The position numbers and the translations under genes were made by a program. Shown here piece by piece: positions 4,498 to 48,760 of a stretch of DNA of 64,000 nt. Position 1 is the stretch's first letter; each line of letters starts with the position of its first letter. The stretch is taken from contig MTMO01000003.1 of NCBI GenBank assembly GCA_002011235.1, positions 62,001 to 126,000 on the forward strand. Reading direction: 5' to 3'. Source of the stretch: Archaeoglobus sp. JdFR-27. Lineage in GTDB: Archaea > Halobacteriota > Archaeoglobi > Archaeoglobales > Archaeoglobaceae. The notes beneath the pieces are model-generated. The model saw nothing but the letters and a program-made list of their open reading frames with translations. It was not told the DNA's origin and did no database searches.

Positions 4498-5769
4498 TCA
4501 TTCCCAGCTGTAAGCCTCTTCTTCTTCGAATGTGTATTTTATTGTCCTAAATTTTTGTTTAAGCTCTTTAACCCTCTGCCTCAGTTTGAATACATCATCT
4601 TCTTTGATGAGACAGGAATGGATTATCTCAGCTATTTCTTCCATTTCATCTTCCCTCATTCCGAGCCTGGTTACCTCTTGGACCCCCATCCTTATTCCAG
4701 AAGGGTCAGGAGACTTGGAGACCTCATCCCATGGAAGAAGATTCTTGTTGAGAACCACATTTATCCTTTCTAAAGACTTTGCAACCTTTGAGCCCCCACC
4801 CAAATCACTTACATCCACAGCAACTTGATGTGAGGCGGTGAATCCTTTACTCTCACCTATAACCTTGAATCCTAAGTCATAGAGTTTTTCCGCAAGCCTC
4901 TTCGCATTTTTAACAACCTGGGATGCGTAATCCTTCCCAAACTCAAGCATCTCGGCAAGAGAGACTACCAAAGCTGTTAACGTGTTGAGGTGGTGATTGC
5001 TGACAACTCCTGGAAAAACAGCCTTATCTATTTCCTCTGCAAGCTCTTTTTTCGAGAGTATGATTGCTCTCTGTGGTCCAAAGAAGGTTTTATGGGTTGA
5101 GGCTGTGACAACATCTGCTCCCTCTCTGAGCGGATCCTGAAATTCTTCCCCAGCTATCAATCCAAGAACGTGACTTGCATCATAGAGTACTTTGGAATCA
5201 AACTCAGATGCAATTTCAGCCAACTCTCTGACTGGTTGAGGAAAGAGAATAAGACTCGAGCCAAGAACAAAAACTCTTGGTCTTAATTTTTCTGCGATTT
5301 TTTTTGTTTCATCGACATCTATCTCCATTTCCTCAACATTGAAGGGATAGTATTCAACTCTCAACCCCCTTATTCCGGCAGCCGAAAACCTGTCATGTGA
5401 AATATGACCTCCACAAGGAATGGAAAGAGCCATAATTAGATCGGATGGTTTCGTAAGTGCAAAAAAAGCGGCTATGTTTGCGACAACACCACTTATGGGC
5501 TGAACATTCGCATGCTCAGCTTTAAAAAGTTTTTTCGTTAAATCTAATGCAAGCTGCTCTATCTCATCTATCGCATCGCAACCTTGGTAGAACCTTTCCC
5601 CAATCTTCCCCTCTGCATATCTATGGCCAAGATCGCTGGAGTAGTACTTTCTTGTAATCGAGCATGTGAGGTTCTCGCTGGCTATGAGGGGAAGGGATTC
5701 TTTGTAAAAACTGTTATGTCTGACTACTGCAGCCTCAAGTTTGCCAAGCACATCCTCATATGAACCCAT
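4498..5769 (-). CDS. glyA: Serine hydroxymethyltransferase
   Basis: A 423-residue PLP enzyme interconverting serine and glycine with transfer of a C1 unit. The N-terminal region SLPLIASENLTCS, the glycine-rich SGVVANIAAFFAL, the PLP-binding Lys in STHKTFFGPQR and the DLGHRYAEGKIGERFYQG segment are all SHMT signatures. In archaea that use tetrahydromethanopterin the C1 carrier is H4MPT rather than folate. The presence of fae-hps and mfnB elsewhere in the window fits that, but the carrier choice is inference. It is monocistronic on the minus strand, separated from the neighbours by 256 and 99 bp. Confidence 0.95.
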   Translation of the reverse strand: MGSYEDVLGKLEAAVVRHNSFYKESLPLIASENLTCSITRKYYSSDLGHRYAEGKIGERFYQGCDAIDEIEQLALDLTKKLFKAEHANVQPISGVVANIAAFFALTKPSDLIMALSIPCGGHISHDRFSAAGIRGLRVEYYPFNVEEMEIDVDETKKIAEKLRPRVFVLGSSLILFPQPVRELAEIASEFDSKVLYDASHVLGLIAGEEFQDPLREGADVVTASTHKTFFGPQRAIILSKKELAEEIDKAVFPGVVSNHHLNTLTALVVSLAEMLEFGKDYASQVVKNAKRLAEKLYDLGFKVIGESKGFTASHQVAVDVSDLGGGSKVAKSLERINVVLNKNLLPWDEVSKSPDPSGIRMGVQEVTRLGMREDEMEEIAEIIHSCLIKEDDVFKLRQRVKELKQKFRTIKYTFEEEEAYSWE

Positions 5770-6337: not shown

Positions 6338-7720
6338 GTGGTAAGATTCGTTCACATAGCTGATGTCCATCTTGGTAACAAGCAGTATGGCAGTGAAGAG
6401 AGGCAGATGGACTTTGCTCAGGCTTTTCTGAATGCAATAAAATTTGCTATAGCGGAGAAAGTTGACTTTATTCTCATAGCTGGAGATCTTTTTCACAAAA
6501 AAACAGAAATGGATCCAGTAACTTTATTGCAGGCAAGAAAAGTTCTCGAGATACCGAAGAAGGAGGAGATCCCAGTTATAGGTGTTGAAGGTAATCATGA
6601 CTCAACCTACTTCAGAGAAAGCTACTCTTGGATGGATTACTTGGCTATTAACGGTCTTATGATTAACTTAAAACCCTCCTTCGAGGATGGGAAATTAAGA
6701 TTAGAGGAATGGGACGGAAAAAGTGGGACATACTATGACTTCAATGGAATCAGGATTTATGGAATGAAATACTATGGCTCGATTTCAGAACGTATCATCG
6801 AGGAATATTTTGCAAAAATGAGGACTTCTAAAAACACAATCTTCATGGCTCATATTGGAGTGGAGGGATACGTAAAGAACATGTACGGCTGCATCCCATC
6901 AGCCAAGATCCACAAGCTTGGCAGAAAAGTTGATTACATCGCCCTAGGCCATGTTCACAAGGCTTTTGTTGAGAAAAATCTGGTTTTCAACCCAGGAAGC
7001 CTTGAAGCATGTGACATAACGGAGACCGCATATGAAAGAGGAGTTTTCGTCGTAGACATGGAAAGTGGTAATCCCAATGCAACACTTAAAAAAGACTTTT
7101 ATGAGCCTAGAGATTTCGTAATTCTGAAGTACAGGGTTAAAAAAGGTATTGAGGAGCTTAAAGGATTTTTAAGCTCAGAGAGGGAGAAAACTAAGCTTAA
7201 AAACAAACCGGTAATCGATCTAACTCTCGATGTGGAGAAATCTTTGAAAAACAGCCTTGAAGAAGACAAGATTAAGGAGTTGATTTCCGAGTATTTTGAT
7301 CCCTTGTTGATAAGACTCCATTGGGATGTAAGAGATCATTTCAGGCCAACAATGCTGGATTTGTCAACTAAGGAGAGCATAGAAAGGAGTGTTGTGGAGC
7401 AACTCCTCGATAACTATAGCTATGGGAAAATAGCTCCTGAGGTTTTAAAGCTAAAAAAGCTGTTTTCCACATCCTTTGATCTTGAAATGGTTGATAGGCT
7501 AATCGACGATTTGCTGTTTGAGAGAGAAGATGCGAAAAGTCCACAAAAAGATTCTGTTTTGACAAGGAACTTAAAAGATCCTGTACCTGAGCCAGAAAAG
7601 TTGTACATAGGAAGGGAAACGGAAAGGAGTGAATCCGATTTAGAGGAAGAGGAAGAAGTTTGGGACTGGAGGAGAGTCCGTGATAAGGGAGGTCGTACTA
7701 GAAAACGTAAAAAGCTATGA
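6338..7720 (+). CDS. mre11: Mre11 nuclease
   Basis: A 460-residue DNA double-strand-break repair nuclease. The metallophosphoesterase motifs are in order: HIADVHLG (I), AGDLFHKK (II), GVEGNHDS (III), MAHIGVEGY (IV) and ALGHVHK (V). A capping domain and a C-terminal Rad50-binding helical region follow. The last 40 residues are strongly charged (Glu run, then RKRKK). Mre11 binds Rad50 and processes DNA ends before HerA-NurA resection. The start is GTG 6338. The gene overlaps rad50 by 41 nt, which implies coupled translation of the complex. Confidence 0.95.
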   Translation: MVRFVHIADVHLGNKQYGSEERQMDFAQAFLNAIKFAIAEKVDFILIAGDLFHKKTEMDPVTLLQARKVLEIPKKEEIPVIGVEGNHDSTYFRESYSWMDYLAINGLMINLKPSFEDGKLRLEEWDGKSGTYYDFNGIRIYGMKYYGSISERIIEEYFAKMRTSKNTIFMAHIGVEGYVKNMYGCIPSAKIHKLGRKVDYIALGHVHKAFVEKNLVFNPGSLEACDITETAYERGVFVVDMESGNPNATLKKDFYEPRDFVILKYRVKKGIEELKGFLSSEREKTKLKNKPVIDLTLDVEKSLKNSLEEDKIKELISEYFDPLLIRLHWDVRDHFRPTMLDLSTKESIERSVVEQLLDNYSYGKIAPEVLKLKKLFSTSFDLEMVDRLIDDLLFEREDAKSPQKDSVLTRNLKDPVPEPEKLYIGRETERSESDLEEEEEVWDWRRVRDKGGRTRKRKKL

Positions 7721-10334
7721 ATTTGAGAGGTTCAACTTCACAGAGGGGCTTAATGCTATAATAGGTGAGAACGGAGCGGGAAAAACTACGATACTTGAGG
7801 CTATCGGCTTTGCTCTCTTCGATTCGTTACCCTATAAGATCTCTGATTTCCTAAGAAAAGGAGCAAAGAAAGGATCGATAAAGATTGCTTTCCTCTCAAG
7901 GGATGGGAGAGAATATGTAGTCGTGAGAAATATAACTGAAACAGGAACAACAGAATTCTACATAAAAGATCAAGAGGTTGGCAGGGTTGCTGAGGGAAAA
8001 GAAGTTTTGAAATGGATTAAACAGGCTTTTGGAATAGAAAGCGATCAGAAGATGTTCTTTGAGAACGCAATTGGAGTTTTACAGGGAAAGATGACAGCCC
8101 AGTTCCTTGAGCCTCCTAGCGTGAGAGATAGAATATTCTCTCCAATAATCGGGATTGAGAGTTACAAAAAGGCTTACGAAAAAAGCAGAGAATATGAAAA
8201 CTACATATCCGAGAAACTTACCGAAGTGGATAAGCAGATTTTTGGATTGGAAAGGGAACTGGAGCTGAAAAAAGAGGTTGAAAAAGAGGTTGAGGAGTTG
8301 GAGAGAAAAGGAGATCAACTCCTGAAAAAGATTAAAATAGCGAAAAAAGAGCTTTCAGAGAAGAATAAAAAATTTGAGGAATTTGAGGATCTTAAAAAAG
8401 AGATTGAGGACCTGTCTAGAAAAATCGTCGAACTCCAAGAGAAGATCTTATTCCATAGGAAGAATCTAAGCGCTACAGAGGAGAGACTCGAGAAAATCGA
8501 GGAGATCGAGAAAAGATTGAAAGAAATCGAGAGGGAATATAAAGAGTACGTTGAAATCGAGGAAAAGATTAAAGAATTTGAGAAGGAAGAGAGAGAGCTG
8601 TCTAAAAAAGCAGAAGAATTCCTTAAAAAGAAGAACGAATTGTATGCTCTCGAAGAAAGGATGAAATCTATTTTTAAGGAGATTTCAGAGATATCTGAGA
8701 AGGAAGAAAAATTAGGTGAGCTAAGAGAGCTTACAAAAAAAGAAAAAGAGCTGGCTGAAAGGACTCAAAAGATTGAGGTTGCTGAGGTTGAGTTCAAGCA
8801 GCTAACAGAACAGAAAAGCAAAGCCGAGATAGAAATTTCAAAAATAACCTTAAGGGTTAAAGAGCTCAGAGTAAGAAAGGAAAAACTTATGAAAGCGGTT
8901 AAAAGCCTGGAAAAACTTAAAGGCTTGGAGGAAAAGCGTGATGCTCTCATCAAGAAGCTAACCGAAATTGAAAGCGAGAAGAACAGGCTTAAAGAGGAAC
9001 TGAATTATCTTAAAGAGAGTATTTGCCCGATTTTAAAGGAAGAATGCGATCGGATTTCAGGAAAAAGGTCAGAAGTAGAAAAGAGATTCAGCGAGCTCGA
9101 AAAGCTTTCATCAGATCTGGAGAAGAAGCTTAAAAAACTAAACGAACTCTATGAGGTAAAAAGAAAACTGGAAAATGCGGCACAGAAACTTTCAGGTGAG
9201 ATTAAAAATTTTGAAGAGTTGGAAAGAGAACTGGAATCGAAAAAGGAGGAAGTCAAGAATATTTCCGCTAAATTAGATGAACTCAAAGAGATTGTAAAGG
9301 ATAAAGAGTTAATTTTAAAGGAGTACGAAAAGGTAAAAGGGAGCACTGAAAAACTAGCGGGAATTGAAGTACTCTTAACTGAAAAGGAAAAGAAGAAGAT
9401 CGAGTTGGAAAAAATTGGTGACACCATAAAAAAGCTTGAAAAAGAGCTAGCTGACCTTCAGCCTGAAGTAGAAAGATACGAAAAGATTAAAGATGAGATA
9501 AGTGATTCTAGAAAGAAGAAAGAGGCAAAAAAAAGATTTTATGAAGAATATATCGCTGGAATAGCCTTATTAAGAGAAAAGAGTAAGATTGAAAACGAGA
9601 TTGCAGAGTTAAGAATAAACATCAAGGAGTTAGAGGAACAAATAAAAAAACATGAAAATGATCTCTCTTCAAAAGAGTCCAAATTCGATGAAAAAGAATA
9701 TGATGGTATCAAAAAAGAGATTATCGAGTTAACTTCTCTTATAGGTAACATTGAGGGTCAGCTAGAGAGCAACAAAAAAACAATTGATGAGAGAAAGAGA
9801 AAAATCGAGGAGCTCAAAAAAAGGGAGACTGAATATAAAGCTTTGTCCAAAGAAAGGAACACTCTAAAAAGAAAACTCGATTTCATCAAAGACCTGAGGG
9901 AAATTTTTAAGCTCGCGATACCCGAGATAACAAAAGCCTACGTCGAATCCGTTTCCATCGAAGCCAACAGAATTTTCTGCGAGATTATGGGTGATTATAG
10001 CTGGGAGCTCAGATGGACGGAAGATTACGGGATTAAAACAAAGTACAGGGGAAGAGAAATCGATTTCGCACAGATGAGCGGGGGTGAGCAGATGTGTGCC
10101 GCTATAGCGGTTAGACTTGCATTGCTGAACATTCTGTCCGATGTTGGCATAGCTTTTTTTGATGAGCCAACGCAAAACATGGACGAAAGAAGGAGAAGGA
10201 ATCTCGCCACCCAGCTTTCCAGAATAGATGGTTTCAAACAGATCTTCGTGATAAGCCACGACGACACGTTTGAGGAAATGGTTGAGAATGCGATAAAGGT
10301 AACAAAGGAGAATGGGGTTTCGAGGGTACAGTAG
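7680..10334 (+). CDS. rad50: Rad50 ATPase of the Mre11-Rad50 complex
   Basis: An 884-residue SMC-like ATPase. The Walker A GENGAGKTT is at residues 29-37, the signature MSGGEQMCAAIA near 800, Walker B IAFFDEPTQNMD next, and the H-loop VISHDD at the end. Between them lie two long antiparallel coiled coils. At the midpoint, where the CXXC zinc hook belongs, the sequence is CPILKEEC (C449, C456), so the two cysteines are six residues apart instead of two. GTG 7680 is preceded by GGAGGAG and starts inside mre11. Rad50 tethers DNA ends and gates Mre11 activity. Confidence 0.95.
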   Translation: MIREVVLENVKSYEFERFNFTEGLNAIIGENGAGKTTILEAIGFALFDSLPYKISDFLRKGAKKGSIKIAFLSRDGREYVVVRNITETGTTEFYIKDQEVGRVAEGKEVLKWIKQAFGIESDQKMFFENAIGVLQGKMTAQFLEPPSVRDRIFSPIIGIESYKKAYEKSREYENYISEKLTEVDKQIFGLERELELKKEVEKEVEELERKGDQLLKKIKIAKKELSEKNKKFEEFEDLKKEIEDLSRKIVELQEKILFHRKNLSATEERLEKIEEIEKRLKEIEREYKEYVEIEEKIKEFEKEERELSKKAEEFLKKKNELYALEERMKSIFKEISEISEKEEKLGELRELTKKEKELAERTQKIEVAEVEFKQLTEQKSKAEIEISKITLRVKELRVRKEKLMKAVKSLEKLKGLEEKRDALIKKLTEIESEKNRLKEELNYLKESICPILKEECDRISGKRSEVEKRFSELEKLSSDLEKKLKKLNELYEVKRKLENAAQKLSGEIKNFEELERELESKKEEVKNISAKLDELKEIVKDKELILKEYEKVKGSTEKLAGIEVLLTEKEKKKIELEKIGDTIKKLEKELADLQPEVERYEKIKDEISDSRKKKEAKKRFYEEYIAGIALLREKSKIENEIAELRINIKELEEQIKKHENDLSSKESKFDEKEYDGIKKEIIELTSLIGNIEGQLESNKKTIDERKRKIEELKKRETEYKALSKERNTLKRKLDFIKDLREIFKLAIPEITKAYVESVSIEANRIFCEIMGDYSWELRWTEDYGIKTKYRGREIDFAQMSGGEQMCAAIAVRLALLNILSDVGIAFFDEPTQNMDERRRRNLATQLSRIDGFKQIFVISHDDTFEEMVENAIKVTKENGVSRVQ

Positions 10335-44329: not shown

Positions 44330-45664
44330 TTGAAAATTGCGATCATCGGTGGGGGAGCTGCTGGTATGACAGCAGCATCCCGAATTAAACGATTAAGACC
44401 TGGCTGGGATGTAAAGGTATTTGAGAGGGCTGCATACGTTAGTCACGCTCCGTGTGGTGTTCCTTTTTATGTTTCAGGTTTTGTTAGAGATATATCGGAG
44501 TTATGCGCCTATGAAATTGATTTTTTCAAGGAGAAAAGAGGAATTGATGTACATCCTAGGGCCAGGGTTGTAAAAGTGGGCAGAGGATTTCTCAAAGTCA
44601 TCGAAAAGAGAAATAACGAGAGCTACGAGAACACTTACGAATGGGACAGACTTCTCTTTGCCACGGGAACGAGAGCTAGCCCTCTGAATGTAAACTGTGA
44701 AGAGCTCGAGGGAGTGTTATGTATTCACTACATAGAGAACGGTGAGAGAGTCAAAAAAATGGCTACTAAGATTGAAAAAATAGTTATCATCGGTTCAGGT
44801 TACATTGGGGTCGAGATGAGTGAGGCTTTTTCGCGATTAGGGAAAAAAGTAATACTTATTGAGAAAGAAAAGAAGCCCATTCCAGATTTCGATCCTGAAA
44901 TAGGCTCAATTTTGAAAAGAAAACTTGAAGAAAAAGTTAAAGCCAGATTTAATGAAGAAGTGATCTCTATTGAAGGGAAAGACAAAGTAGAGAAGGTTGT
45001 CACTGATAAAGGAAAGTACAAATGCGAGATGGTTATCATTGCTGTAGGAGAGGTTCCAAATGTTGAGCTGGCAAAAGATCTAGGCGTTAAACTGGGGAAA
45101 AGTGGGGCAATAGAGACGAACAGCAGGATGGAGACAAACATTAAAGGTGTCTATGCAGCCGGTGACTGCGCCGAAACTGTGAATATCGTCACTGGAGAGA
45201 AGGACTGGATTCCTCTCGCAGCCCCCGCAAACAAAATGGGCTACGTTGCCGGAGTTAACATCGCTGGTTATGAAATGGAGTTTCCGGGAGCGGTGAGAAG
45301 TCAGCTGACATCTTTCTACAACCTCGAAATCGGAAGGGCAGGATTAAGTGAAAAGGAGGCTTTAAAGAAGGGATTCGATCCGATTTCAGCTACAATAACT
45401 ATGAAATCAACTGCCAAATACATACCAAACGGAGACATCACGATAAAGCTTGTTGCAGATTCAAACGGGAAGGTACTGGGAGTTCAGGCTGCTGGTACAG
45501 GAGTTGCCAAAAGGATATACGCAGCTGCATCACTCCTTTATAAAAAATCAACTGTCGAAGATTTTTTCTTTGCCGATCTACCATACTACCCACCCGAATC
45601 AAGGGTTTGGGACCCGCTGGTAGTTGCTGCCAGAAACCTCTTCAGGAAGTTAGGAATGCCTTGA
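44330..45664 (+). CDS. CoA-disulfide reductase / NADH oxidase-type flavoprotein
   Basis: A 444-residue FAD/NAD-dependent disulfide reductase. GGGAAGMTAASRI binds FAD, and SHAPCGVPFYVSGF holds the single redox Cys of CoADR/Npsr/Nox enzymes. VIIGSGYIGVEMSEAF binds NAD(P)H and GVYAAGDCAE is the second FAD motif. The C-terminal dimer domain ends FADLPYYPPESRVWDPL. Relatives reduce CoA disulfide, polysulfide or oxygen, and several paralogues are usual in Archaeoglobales. TTG 44330 is preceded by GAAGGTGAT, so the rare start is well supported. Confidence 0.88.
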   Translation: MKIAIIGGGAAGMTAASRIKRLRPGWDVKVFERAAYVSHAPCGVPFYVSGFVRDISELCAYEIDFFKEKRGIDVHPRARVVKVGRGFLKVIEKRNNESYENTYEWDRLLFATGTRASPLNVNCEELEGVLCIHYIENGERVKKMATKIEKIVIIGSGYIGVEMSEAFSRLGKKVILIEKEKKPIPDFDPEIGSILKRKLEEKVKARFNEEVISIEGKDKVEKVVTDKGKYKCEMVIIAVGEVPNVELAKDLGVKLGKSGAIETNSRMETNIKGVYAAGDCAETVNIVTGEKDWIPLAAPANKMGYVAGVNIAGYEMEFPGAVRSQLTSFYNLEIGRAGLSEKEALKKGFDPISATITMKSTAKYIPNGDITIKLVADSNGKVLGVQAAGTGVAKRIYAAASLLYKKSTVEDFFFADLPYYPPESRVWDPLVVAARNLFRKLGMP

Positions 45665-45666
45665 CA

Positions 45667-46383
45667 TTATCTCAATCTTAAGAGTTCCAACACTCTCTTT
45701 TTATACAGATTAAAATCGGGAGAAGTTCGATCCCTAGGCCTTTCAAGTTCGATCTCCACCTCCCCAGCAACCTTGGAGGGTCTCGGAGTTAGAACTATCA
45801 CCCTCGAAGCCAAGAATACCGCCTCCTCGATTGAATGAGTGACAAAGATGACGGTTTTCTTTTCTTTTTCCCAGATCTCTACGAGTTCCTCCTGCATTTT
45901 TGCTCTCGATAGTTCATCGAGGGATGCGAATGGCTCATCCATCAGCAAGATCTCTGGTTGGATCGCTATAGCCCTTGCTATTCCTAAACGTTGCCTCATA
46001 CCTCCAGAAAGTTCCTTGGGATAGTAATTTTCGAAACCTTGGAGGCCAACACTCCTTAAAATCTCTTTAGCAAGCTTAAAATCTTCCTCAGAGACTTTTT
46101 TTCTTATTTCAATTCCGAACAGAACGTTTCCAATCGCCGTCCTCCACGGAAGAAGTCTATCATCTTGAAAAACAAATCCAATTGATCTTCTGTCTAATAT
46201 CTTGCCTCTGTAGGTTATTCTTCCTTCAAAGCTCTCCAAACCGGCGATAATTCTCAGCAACGTGGTTTTTCCGCAGCCGCTCTCTCCAACCACACACACA
46301 AACTCTCCAGGATAGGTTTTAAATTCAATGTTCTCTATAACTTTTAATCCATCAAAGCTTTTGCTCACAGAAATTTCAAGCAA
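45667..46383 (-). CDS. ABC transporter ATP-binding protein (SsuB/TauB type)
   Basis: A 238-residue ATPase. Walker A is GESGCGKTTLLR, signature ELSGGMRQRLGIARA, Walker B ILLMDEPFASLDE and the H-loop FVTHSIEEA. It is closest to the nitrate/sulfonate/taurine import ATPases. It follows the permease directly (stop and start adjoin) and the substrate-binding lipoprotein, giving the order SBP, permease, ATPase. The operon ends 2 bp from the convergent flavoprotein stop. Confidence 0.9.
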   Translation of the reverse strand: MLEISVSKSFDGLKVIENIEFKTYPGEFVCVVGESGCGKTTLLRIIAGLESFEGRITYRGKILDRRSIGFVFQDDRLLPWRTAIGNVLFGIEIRKKVSEEDFKLAKEILRSVGLQGFENYYPKELSGGMRQRLGIARAIAIQPEILLMDEPFASLDELSRAKMQEELVEIWEKEKKTVIFVTHSIEEAVFLASRVIVLTPRPSKVAGEVEIELERPRDRTSPDFNLYKKRVLELLRLR

Positions 46384-47148
46384 TTATCTCCACCTCAGAA
46401 GCTTTTTTTCAGCCAAAATAACAACCTCGTTCATGAGATAGCCTATCAAGCCGATCATGATCATACCGCTGATGATTTCTGCAACCCTCCCTCCCACCTC
46501 ATACATGACCATTATGAAGTAACCCAAGCCCGAACCGGAGGTCGCAAGCATCTCGGCTGCAACTATCGTCATCCAGCCAATCCCAAGACCTATTCTTATC
46601 CCAGCAAGAATTCCAGGAAGAGAGCTTGGAATTACGATCTTTCTCAAAACCTCCGAATCGCTCGCACCAAACGCACAAGCCATTTCTAAGAGGTTCTTGT
46701 CGGTCGCTCTGGCGAACTCTCTCGTTGAGAGAAGACAGGGGAAGAAGGCTCCAAGGAAGACTATGAATATCTGAGCAAGCTGAACTGGGTTTGCAAATCC
46801 TGCAAAGATTATATATGCGAGAGGAATCCATGCAAGAGGCGGAATCGGCCTGAAAACCTCGAGCATCGTGGAAAAGTAGGTATCCAACTTGAGATTCCAA
46901 CCTACAATTATTCCCAAAGGTATGGCAAGAATAAAGGCAATCGAAGAGCCAACCATTACCCTCACAAGACTTGCAAGGGAGTGTTGAATTAGATTTTTTC
47001 CCAAAACCGGTTCGGGATTGACCAAAAGATCCAATAACTTTTCTCCAACCTCATGGGGTAGAGGCAAGGTAAGGATTTTCAAACCAACGACAGCGTACCA
47101 CAGGAAGATTATCGTAAAAAAAGCAAGAAGCTTTAACCTACTGTTCAT
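46384..47148 (-). CDS. ABC transporter permease (SsuC/TauC type)
   Basis: A 254-residue membrane protein with about six transmembrane helices, starting LLAFFTIIFLWYAVVG. The EAA loop is ACAFGASDSEVLRKIVIPSSLPGILAGIRIGLG. PIPPLAWIPLAYIIFAG is the typical TauC/SsuC motif. It forms the channel of the importer with the ATPase and binding protein. Gaps to both neighbours are very short (30 bp or none), so all three are co-transcribed. Confidence 0.9.
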   Translation of the reverse strand: MNSRLKLLAFFTIIFLWYAVVGLKILTLPLPHEVGEKLLDLLVNPEPVLGKNLIQHSLASLVRVMVGSSIAFILAIPLGIIVGWNLKLDTYFSTMLEVFRPIPPLAWIPLAYIIFAGFANPVQLAQIFIVFLGAFFPCLLSTREFARATDKNLLEMACAFGASDSEVLRKIVIPSSLPGILAGIRIGLGIGWMTIVAAEMLATSGSGLGYFIMVMYEVGGRVAEIISGMIMIGLIGYLMNEVVILAEKKLLRWR

Positions 47149-47179: not shown

Positions 47180-48169
47180 CTACTTTGATACAACCTGCAT
47201 CCCATACTTCTCTGCCACAATTCTCAGTAGGAAGTCTTGAACTGTTCCGTATCCTGGAATTGCAATCGTTTTCCCCTTCAGATCCTCAATGCTGTTTATG
47301 TCCTTTTGGACCACTATCGCGCTCCCCTCATTGTTCGCTCCGGCGATTATCCTTATTTTAATATTATCATTTATCCTTTTAAGCGTTGCAGGGGCTCCTC
47401 CAAGATATGCTACATCGATTTCACCAGCTTTGAAGGCTTCCATCACAGCTACGCCATTCTTGTACTGTTTTAGCTCATAATCCATGCCCGTTTCATCCAA
47501 GTAGCCTTCCCTTACCGCAACGTAGAGTGCAAGCTGGTGGAGATCTGCCGTTAAATAACCAATTCTGACCTTCCCATTATATTTTGGAGGGTCATTCATT
47601 CCTTTAGCGGACTCATAGATATCTTTCCTTAGAAAATCTGAAAAGAATTCTCCATCATCCTTAAATCCTAAATCAATGAGTTTCCTTGTAAGTAAACCGT
47701 ATTTTTTAAGCTTTTCGAAATAAAACTTGAATTCTTTCTCGTCTGGATAGGTTGTATATTCGATGTTATCAATCGCTTTCGCTACCACATCTCTTTCAAG
47801 CCCGGTAAATTCTGACGCGTATCCAATCACCTTTTCTCTGTTTTTTCCATCATTTATAAACTCTGTAGCTTTCACGTGTGCCCAGACAATAGATTTTAGT
47901 GCTTCTTCCCCTCTAAACTCGACTGAATAAGCAACCACGCAACAAGGATGATGTTTCCAGATGTCTGAAGATGCCATCAAAACCTTCCCTCCAATCCCAA
48001 CACCTTTAGTTACAAAAGGTTCCCATGCAACAAAACCATCAATTTGCTTCAATTTAAATTGTTCAATCATGTCAGGAGGAGAGAGTTTAACAACGTATAT
48101 CCCTTCATCCTGAGTACAGCCTAAAGTTAACACAGAAACAACAACGATTAGAATGAGTCTTAGATCCAT
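47180..48169 (-). CDS. Substrate-binding lipoprotein of the ABC importer, halves in swapped order
   Basis: A 329-residue binding protein of the SsuA/TauA/NMT1 kind. Residues 1-18 are a lipoprotein signal ending LTLGC (lipidated Cys18). Ordinary members begin with VRIGYL...HQLALYVA...GEIDVAYLGGAPA...EDLKGKTIAIPG and continue into VVKLSPPDM...QIDGFVAWEPF...HPCCVV. Here the second part comes first (residues 25-190) and the VRIGYL part last (201-329), so the sequence looks circularly permuted. ATG 48169 is preferred because upstream residues precede the signal sequence. It is divergent from the HTH regulator. Ligand is unknown; organosulfur or nitrogen compounds are candidates by family. Confidence 0.8.
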   Translation of the reverse strand: MDLRLILIVVVSVLTLGCTQDEGIYVVKLSPPDMIEQFKLKQIDGFVAWEPFVTKGVGIGGKVLMASSDIWKHHPCCVVAYSVEFRGEEALKSIVWAHVKATEFINDGKNREKVIGYASEFTGLERDVVAKAIDNIEYTTYPDEKEFKFYFEKLKKYGLLTRKLIDLGFKDDGEFFSDFLRKDIYESAKGMNDPPKYNGKVRIGYLTADLHQLALYVAVREGYLDETGMDYELKQYKNGVAVMEAFKAGEIDVAYLGGAPATLKRINDNIKIRIIAGANNEGSAIVVQKDINSIEDLKGKTIAIPGYGTVQDFLLRIVAEKYGMQVVSK

Positions 48170-48268: not shown

Positions 48269-48760
48269 ATGATAAGCAGACTCGTAAAGGCACTTCTCAA
48301 AAGCGAAGACGAATTTTCCAAAGAACTTGAAAAGATTATTAAGGAGAGTGGAATAGATCTTTCCGACTTTGCAAAGAGGTGCGGAGTTCCTTACTCAACC
48401 TTCTACAAGATAGTCAAGGGTCAGAGGTCACCAACATTGGGTACGGTAAGAAAGATACTATCGGCATTCAAGACGGAAGAGGGTTTTCTAGCAGTTATTG
48501 CAGCAAGACACATTCTTGAGGAGATTTCTCCCTTTAGAGAGAGAATTCCCGTAAAAAACTATCCTGCAATTAACTTCGAGGAGGCTCTAATTATGGCATT
48601 AAGAGCCGAAAAGGAGGGAGCTATTGCAATAGTTTGTGCTCCAGTTTTAAGTACAACAATTGAGAAGCTTGTCGATATCCCCGTTTTTACAATGAGGCCA
48701 AAGAACAGTATTATCAAGGCCGTTGAGCAAGCTGTTGAAAAGCTTTCTTCTCAGCTTTAA
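48269..48760 (+). CDS. XRE-type HTH regulator with C-terminal ligand-like domain
   Basis: A 163-residue regulator. Residues about 24-70 are a cro/C1-type HTH (LSDFAKRCGVPYSTFYKIVKG). The C-terminal half (residues 95-160) reads NFEEALIMALRAEKEGAIAIVC, then KLVDIPVFTMRPKNSIIKAVEQA, a pattern like the receptor half-domain of PrpR-type sensors. It is divergent from the ABC importer operon and therefore a likely regulator of it (inference). Convergent overlap of 4 bp with the TFE gene. Confidence 0.8.
   Translation: MISRLVKALLKSEDEFSKELEKIIKESGIDLSDFAKRCGVPYSTFYKIVKGQRSPTLGTVRKILSAFKTEEGFLAVIAARHILEEISPFRERIPVKNYPAINFEEALIMALRAEKEGAIAIVCAPVLSTTIEKLVDIPVFTMRPKNSIIKAVEQAVEKLSSQL

Follow-up and report, generated by a model that had tools for sequence, protein, structure and literature searches.

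Archaeoglobus sp. JdFR-27 encodes a 329 amino acid lipoprotein that is related to NMT1/SsuA-like ABC binding proteins by a genuine circular permutation. The gene lies in the window, the whole 64,000 nucleotide stretch of DNA that was analysed, and coordinates given here without a locus prefix refer to this stretch. Taking sequence comparison and structure prediction together, we consider it very likely that the protein is a working, membrane-tethered type II substrate-binding protein (SBP) belonging to an ABC importer of three genes controlled by a divergent HTH regulator, and this judgement includes the origin and cargo proposed below. The open reading frame starts with an ATG at 48169, ends with a stop codon at 47180-47182 on the minus strand, and is made up of the following parts:

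47183-48169, minus strand: lipoprotein coding sequence, 329 aa, circularly permuted NMT1/SsuA-like ABC binding protein
48116..48169, minus strand: signal peptide and lipobox (residues 1-18, ...TLGC), read from the sequence and joined straight to segment c
47600..48103, minus strand: segment c (residues 23-190), from NMT1_2 positions 150-248, the segment HMM and the AlphaFold model (strand 23-28 onward)
47939..47950, minus strand: HPCC motif (residues 74-77), invariant in alignment A1 and common to the canonical archaeal relatives
47576..47599, minus strand: linker (residues 191-198) bridging the former C- and N-termini, located where segment c meets segment a
47288..47575, minus strand: segment a (residues 199-294), from NMT1 positions 6-118 and the segment HMM, homologue of the canonical N-terminal part
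47183..47287, minus strand: segment b (residues 295-329, LKGKTIAIPGYGTVQD...KYGMQVVSK), from the segment HMM and the AlphaFold model (strand 301-304, helix 310-321)

Segment c is the homologue of the C-terminal part of canonical NMT1/SsuA proteins and begins with the strand IYVVKLSPPDM, while segment b is the first strand-helix of lobe 2 and is where the protein now terminates. The lipobox is LGC at residues 16-18 (VLTLGC18), so that the protein belongs by sequence to the lipoproteins, its lipid modification being predicted. Both M1 and C18 are invariant across the 20 permuted relatives of alignment A1.

Rotated order and predicted fold

Both Pfam families score well above their gathering thresholds, at 92.5 against 24.7 bits for NMT1_2 (PF13379) and 46.1 against 20.5 bits for NMT1 (PF09084). 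Positions 150-248 of NMT1_2, from its C-terminal part, match the early residues 20-115, and positions 6-118 of NMT1, from its N-terminal part, match the late residues 214-325, so the halves stand in reversed order. The TIGR01728 (SsuA_fam) profile shows the same inversion. To rotate the protein we moved residues 195-329 ahead of residues 19-194, and only in this form does it follow the order of the NMT1-like family profile. Rotation joins the two NMT1_2 stretches into one covering positions 7-248 of 252, with a rise from 92.5 to 104.4 bits, and likewise joins the two SsuA_fam stretches into one covering positions 1-244 of 290. PDB chains of TauA, SsuA and a nitrate-transport protein also give better and longer matches with the rotated sequence. 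Scores remain below the curated cut-offs, both for SsuA_fam TIGR01728 (123.7 bits native and 133.4 rotated, against 163.5) and for TauA TIGR01729 (47.6 native and 55.8 rotated, against 304.25).

Against profile A3, built from 16 canonical archaeal relatives, the rotated form outscores the native form in all 40 permuted proteins, the mean best-domain score rising from 95 to 184 bits, a gain well outside chance expectation. HMMs for the individual segments (c, residues 23-186; a, 198-291; b, 295-329) arrange the permuted set as c-a-b and the canonical relatives as a-b-c. Each part is present once, the order is rotated, no segment is missing and the rotated sequence aligns in one piece. The preliminary description had read the protein as a circular permutant with swapped halves that keeps its lipobox and has no missing half hidden downstream, and on each point it was right: domain order, rotation and relatives agree, LGC with its invariant cysteine is in place, and the permease starts at 47148 after a gap of 31 bp. 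The direct and rotated alignments, the structure prediction and the search for relatives with the same order, all of which it had proposed as checks, bear it out as well. Matches to glutamate dehydrogenase were discarded as coincidental, spanning just the Rossmann-like strand LKGKTIAIPGYG.

AlphaFold, run with A1, gives a confident model of the permuted protein (mean pLDDT 92.7, pTM 0.86), comparable figures for the canonical relative L150 being pLDDT 89.2 and pTM 0.80. The list of strands and helices in the permuted model is the L150 list rotated, with a single cut between canonical helix 170-181 and strand 191-194; the models thus describe a predicted complete fold with the canonical elements in rotated order, the likeness being judged by secondary-structure order rather than by coordinate superposition. 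A Foldseek search with the canonical L150 model finds SsuA, TauA and CmpA in the PDB, with TM scores by target of 0.79-0.86 and E values of about 1e-20. The permuted model reaches TM scores of just 0.2-0.5 in this order-dependent search, its weak global matches being headed by Bacillus subtilis OpuAC. Its sequence and the canonical relative's fold both place the protein among type II, NMT1/SsuA-like SBPs, and the lobes to which we assign its termini are those of the general type II fold rather than read from coordinates.

Candidate site residues H211, S283, Q311, S67, H74, C76 and C77 are common to the permuted and the canonical archaeal members. Conservation in the permuted and canonical proteins is respectively 100% and 100% for H74, 92% and 100% for C76, and 100% and 98% for C77. 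These shared residues, which would line the cleft, argue for its conservation.

The importer locus and its probable cargo

The SBP gene is flanked by the other genes of the proposed importer and by a regulator:

46384..47148, minus strand: ABC permease (SaoP/TauC/NtrB-like), BPD_transp_1 1.9e-19, NF040733 and PRK10160 below cut-off
45667..46383, minus strand: ABC ATPase (SaoA/TauB-like), ABC_tran 2.7e-30, NF040729 and PRK11248 below cut-off
48269..48760, plus strand: divergent HTH_3 regulator, HTH_3 1.9e-8

This locus of divergent HTH regulator, SBP, permease and ATPase is found in most canonical and permuted genomes. The permease is conserved beside SBPs of both kinds, the ATPase in most loci, and the regulator family accompanies c-a-b, b-c-a (described below) and canonical SBPs alike, making it a co-conserved marker of the locus. 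The regulator, which has a C-terminal domain of about 90 amino acids with a weak PrpR_N match, is co-conserved with the transporter across the phylum and is a candidate sensor of coenzyme M (CoM) or a sulfonate. A scan of the divergent intergenic region for a shared inverted-repeat operator gave none that was convincing. On the other side, a plus-strand gene for a pyridine nucleotide-disulphide oxidoreductase (44330-45664) converges on the ABC operon and is kept as a neighbour in L039-L041 and L058. In four Archaeoglobaceae genomes (L043-L046) genes resembling MtrH and RamA precede the permuted SBP operon, and UroD-like methyltransferases, a corrinoid protein and a cobalamin adenosyltransferase are encoded in the vicinity.

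The best characterised matches are SsuA and TauA (TIGR01728, TIGR01729; PDB 2x26, 6ssy), which share the fold and the aligned segments but have the order a-b-c instead of c-a-b; their curated cut-offs are missed even after rotation, and the Escherichia coli TauA and SsuA lack the archaeal site signature (H211, Q311, HPCC). Canonical archaeal CoM-type SsuABC loci (such as L142-L144 and L147-L152), which would correspond to the Methanosarcina acetivorans ssuABC genes, have the same layout, regulator family and site residues, and are unpermuted. Some canonical members of the family are fused into long open reading frames. In L145 (3815-7324, minus strand) the SBP is part of a 1169 amino acid open reading frame with N-terminal NosD-like repeats, and in L146 (3193-5601, plus strand) it is part of one of 802 amino acids with C-terminal extensions that contain PT repeats. 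L142 carries about six copies of an 18 bp tandem repeat (GATAATTATCAGCACATG) just upstream of the canonical SBP start at 5670 on the minus strand.

A fused sulfopyruvate decarboxylase (ComDE) adjoins the SBP gene, or lies at most two genes away, in L055, L109 and L111, which are permuted, and in L154, which is canonical. In L055 a cysteate synthase scoring above its curated cut-off adjoins the permuted SBP as well. Methanogen ssuABC has been described as a coenzyme M transporter, and CoM starvation raises ssuA and ssuC together with cs and comDE (PMC12068725, PMC10658910). The neighbouring coenzyme M biosynthesis genes and the kinship with SsuA and TauA suggest a sulfonate importer. No sulfonate or CoM genes adjoin the Archaeoglobus locus, MCR is absent from the window genome and from the sampled members of its family, and the window genome and close relatives give weak model matches to CoM synthase but none at full score; without MCR and a full-score CoM synthase match, coenzyme M is an unlikely cargo in Archaeoglobus. 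As a hypothesis, the cargo would be an organosulfonate, probably CoM or a precursor in methanogens and some other sulfonate in Archaeoglobus.

The main competitor, to which we give a substantial share of the probability but somewhat under half, is that the importer carries a non-sulfonate cargo such as another small anion or a thiamine-like precursor. NMT1, NrtA, CmpA and ThiY folds have a common architecture, and CmpA, NrtA, PqqT and Thi5 also stand high in the Foldseek results for the canonical relative. The missed SsuA and TauA cut-offs, the lack of adjoining sulfonate or CoM genes in Archaeoglobus, and the MtrH-like, UroD-like, RamA-like and adenosyltransferase-like neighbours in L043-L046 all lend this reading weight. 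Against it, the best characterised sequence matches are to the TauA and SsuA families, and several lineages, with SBPs of both the permuted and the canonical form, have cysteate synthase and ComDE next to the SBP.

Genomes G051, G042 and G037 contain MCR and no full-score match to coenzyme M synthase (MMP16); they may import CoM or rely on a different route, and the permuted SBP is present in G051 and G037. In L055 an SBP-like protein with no evident signal peptide (7450-8328, plus strand) is encoded between ComDE and the permuted SBP, with distant relatives in L033 and L035, and could be a cytosolic enzyme or sensor tied to coenzyme M.

Independent permutants and the route between orders

Besides the c-a-b order of the Archaeoglobus protein (type A) there is a second rotated order, b-c-a (type B), with a different cut point. 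It was found in just two genes among 393 genomes:

L110:4371-5453, plus strand: type B permutant of genome G074, b-c-a by segment HMMs, with an RR signal and a lipobox
L111:4936-6081, minus strand: type B permutant of genome G322, segment b below the HMM threshold and located by visual inspection and an alignment with L146

A tree built from the rotated sequences pairs L110 with its canonical congener L144 as sisters (support 100). L111 falls inside a canonical clade, and the branches starred in this tree force two changes for type B. The topology indicates two independent type B permutation events, of which L111 is the weaker case, G322 being an incomplete bin with 79% completeness and 6% contamination. 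The C-terminus of the L111 protein has TPGF, a membrane helix and RRR in an archaeosortase (PGF-CTERM)-like arrangement, and this copy may be C-terminally anchored.

Comparison of L110 with L144 shows an exact split, residues 56-257 of L110 aligning to 144-346 of L144 with 69% identity and residues 267-359 aligning to 51-143 with 85%. At the DNA level the regulator, the signal-peptide region and the downstream permease and ATPase are collinear, and the sole relocated DNA is a stretch of about 278 bp, from 4337-4614 in L144 to 5169-5446 in L110. L110 keeps the original flanks of start and stop, and its linker resembles the former C-terminus with a piece of the former leader behind it. This pattern fits an internal tandem duplication with two subsequent deletions, and a single segment relocation would fit it as well. 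The preliminary description had taken duplication followed by loss of both ends as the likely route; the flanks and linker of L110 agree with this, and it is unproven, no tandem-duplicate intermediate having been found. The cytosolic-looking SBP-like gene directly upstream in L055 was considered as a duplication partner and rejected, as its branch in the tree is long and distant from the permuted proteins and it is no close donor.

We envisage that an in-frame tandem duplication inside the gene came first, after which the first copy lost its 5' part and the second copy its 3' part. Such a duplication-deletion would have happened once in the c-a-b ancestor and at least two more times, giving b-c-a, elsewhere. 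In the type A protein the old termini, both on lobe 1, would be joined by the short linker, and the new termini would fall within lobe 2, at the break between the helix that follows KGKTIAIPG and the strand VVKLSPPDM. The site of lipid anchoring would thereby have shifted from lobe 1 to lobe 2 with the ligand cleft unchanged. More tentatively, and with doubt outweighing belief, we suggest that the importer locus is a hot spot where permutation took place independently at least three times (an ancient c-a-b event and two recent b-c-a events), each time carrying the anchor over from lobe 1 into lobe 2 or releasing the N-terminus from lobe 1, which would suggest selection on the place of the tether over neutral drift.

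A chance fusion of two half-domains or genes from different parents is improbable. The authors of work on Treponema pallidum Tp0684 did weigh acquisition of its permuted part from another gene (PMC4990184), which lends the idea a precedent, but here both halves match one canonical family without overlap, the rotated whole aligns in one piece, and in L110 both segments come from one orthologous gene, at 69% and 85% identity to L144. Tp0684 (TpMglB-2) is itself a natural permutant, of a glucose-binding ABC lipoprotein, which keeps its binding and membrane anchor and is conserved in its clade (PMC4990184). It differs in its Type I, cluster B fold, where the cut falls within the N lobe, and the Type Ic assignment made for it does not apply to the type II protein described here. 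The permuted part of Tp0684 is also poorly conserved in sequence, whereas the relation here is clear in sequence and, for L110, in DNA. OpuAC, which tops the Foldseek list of our permuted model, is related to other betaine- and molybdate-binding proteins by a natural circular permutation of the type II fold, in a family whose pairs share less than 24% sequence identity and were found by structure; the section of that report drawn on here (PMC2395249) describes no event that was recent or happened in place and left permuted and unpermuted forms at a single orthologous locus. Our literature search, whose coverage left out most subscription journals, returned no report of circular permutation for the NMT1/SsuA family or for archaea. 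Permuted ABC binding proteins are thus already known, and the surprise is the recurrence at one orthologous locus together with a base-level record of a recent event.

Natural circular permutations have mostly been found through distant structure comparison, with the path between the two orders lost. Here permuted and unpermuted forms occupy the same locus, and because L110 and its unpermuted congener L144 are 69-85% identical and have collinear flanking DNA, the event can be traced at single-base resolution. The system is a natural experiment in protein rewiring, and lets the effect of the tethered lobe on the work of binding protein and transporter be tested. It also bears on annotation: pipelines split or under-score such permutants, and order-dependent structure searches miss their true relatives.

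Conservation among relatives

A protein search of 60 relatives gave one-piece, full-length matches at each rank from genus through family and order to class, and outside the class too, and canonical proteins matched the query in two pieces in the opposite order. Profile A1, made from the 20 permuted proteins, was then searched across 393 Halobacteriota genomes and gave, by our own count, 74 full-length one-piece matches in 72 genomes and 13 families, plus one match cut by a contig end; canonical relatives matched A1 in halves only and with far weaker E values. With the order kept in about 72 genomes, c-a-b is a feature of long standing in the family rather than a local peculiarity. The likelihood rose when all 38 type A rows of the tree were constrained to one clade (p-AU 0.80), so the data are compatible with a single origin of type A. 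The window genome holds no close unpermuted copy, only distant canonical paralogues of 24-28% identity, and a plasmid search gave no match covering 80% of the query.

An assembly or binning artefact, in which a canonical gene was rearranged in silico, is refuted for type A: the window genome is split into 67 contigs and the assemblies of several relatives are fragmented too, but the one-piece order recurs in the genomes just counted, with single-contig carriers such as G005, G015, G035, G171 and G209 among them, and the lipobox start, the protein end and the flanking genes agree between genomes. Nor does a degenerating pseudogene, for which nothing but the unusual order would speak, survive the zero internal stops across the full-length matches, the invariant site residues, the intact operon and the strong purifying selection shown by dN/dS values of 0.03-0.07 in the three pairs with measurable dS (dS being saturated in the other three). 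In the roughly 13 codons around the linker, dN exceeds that of the domains in four of the six pairs.
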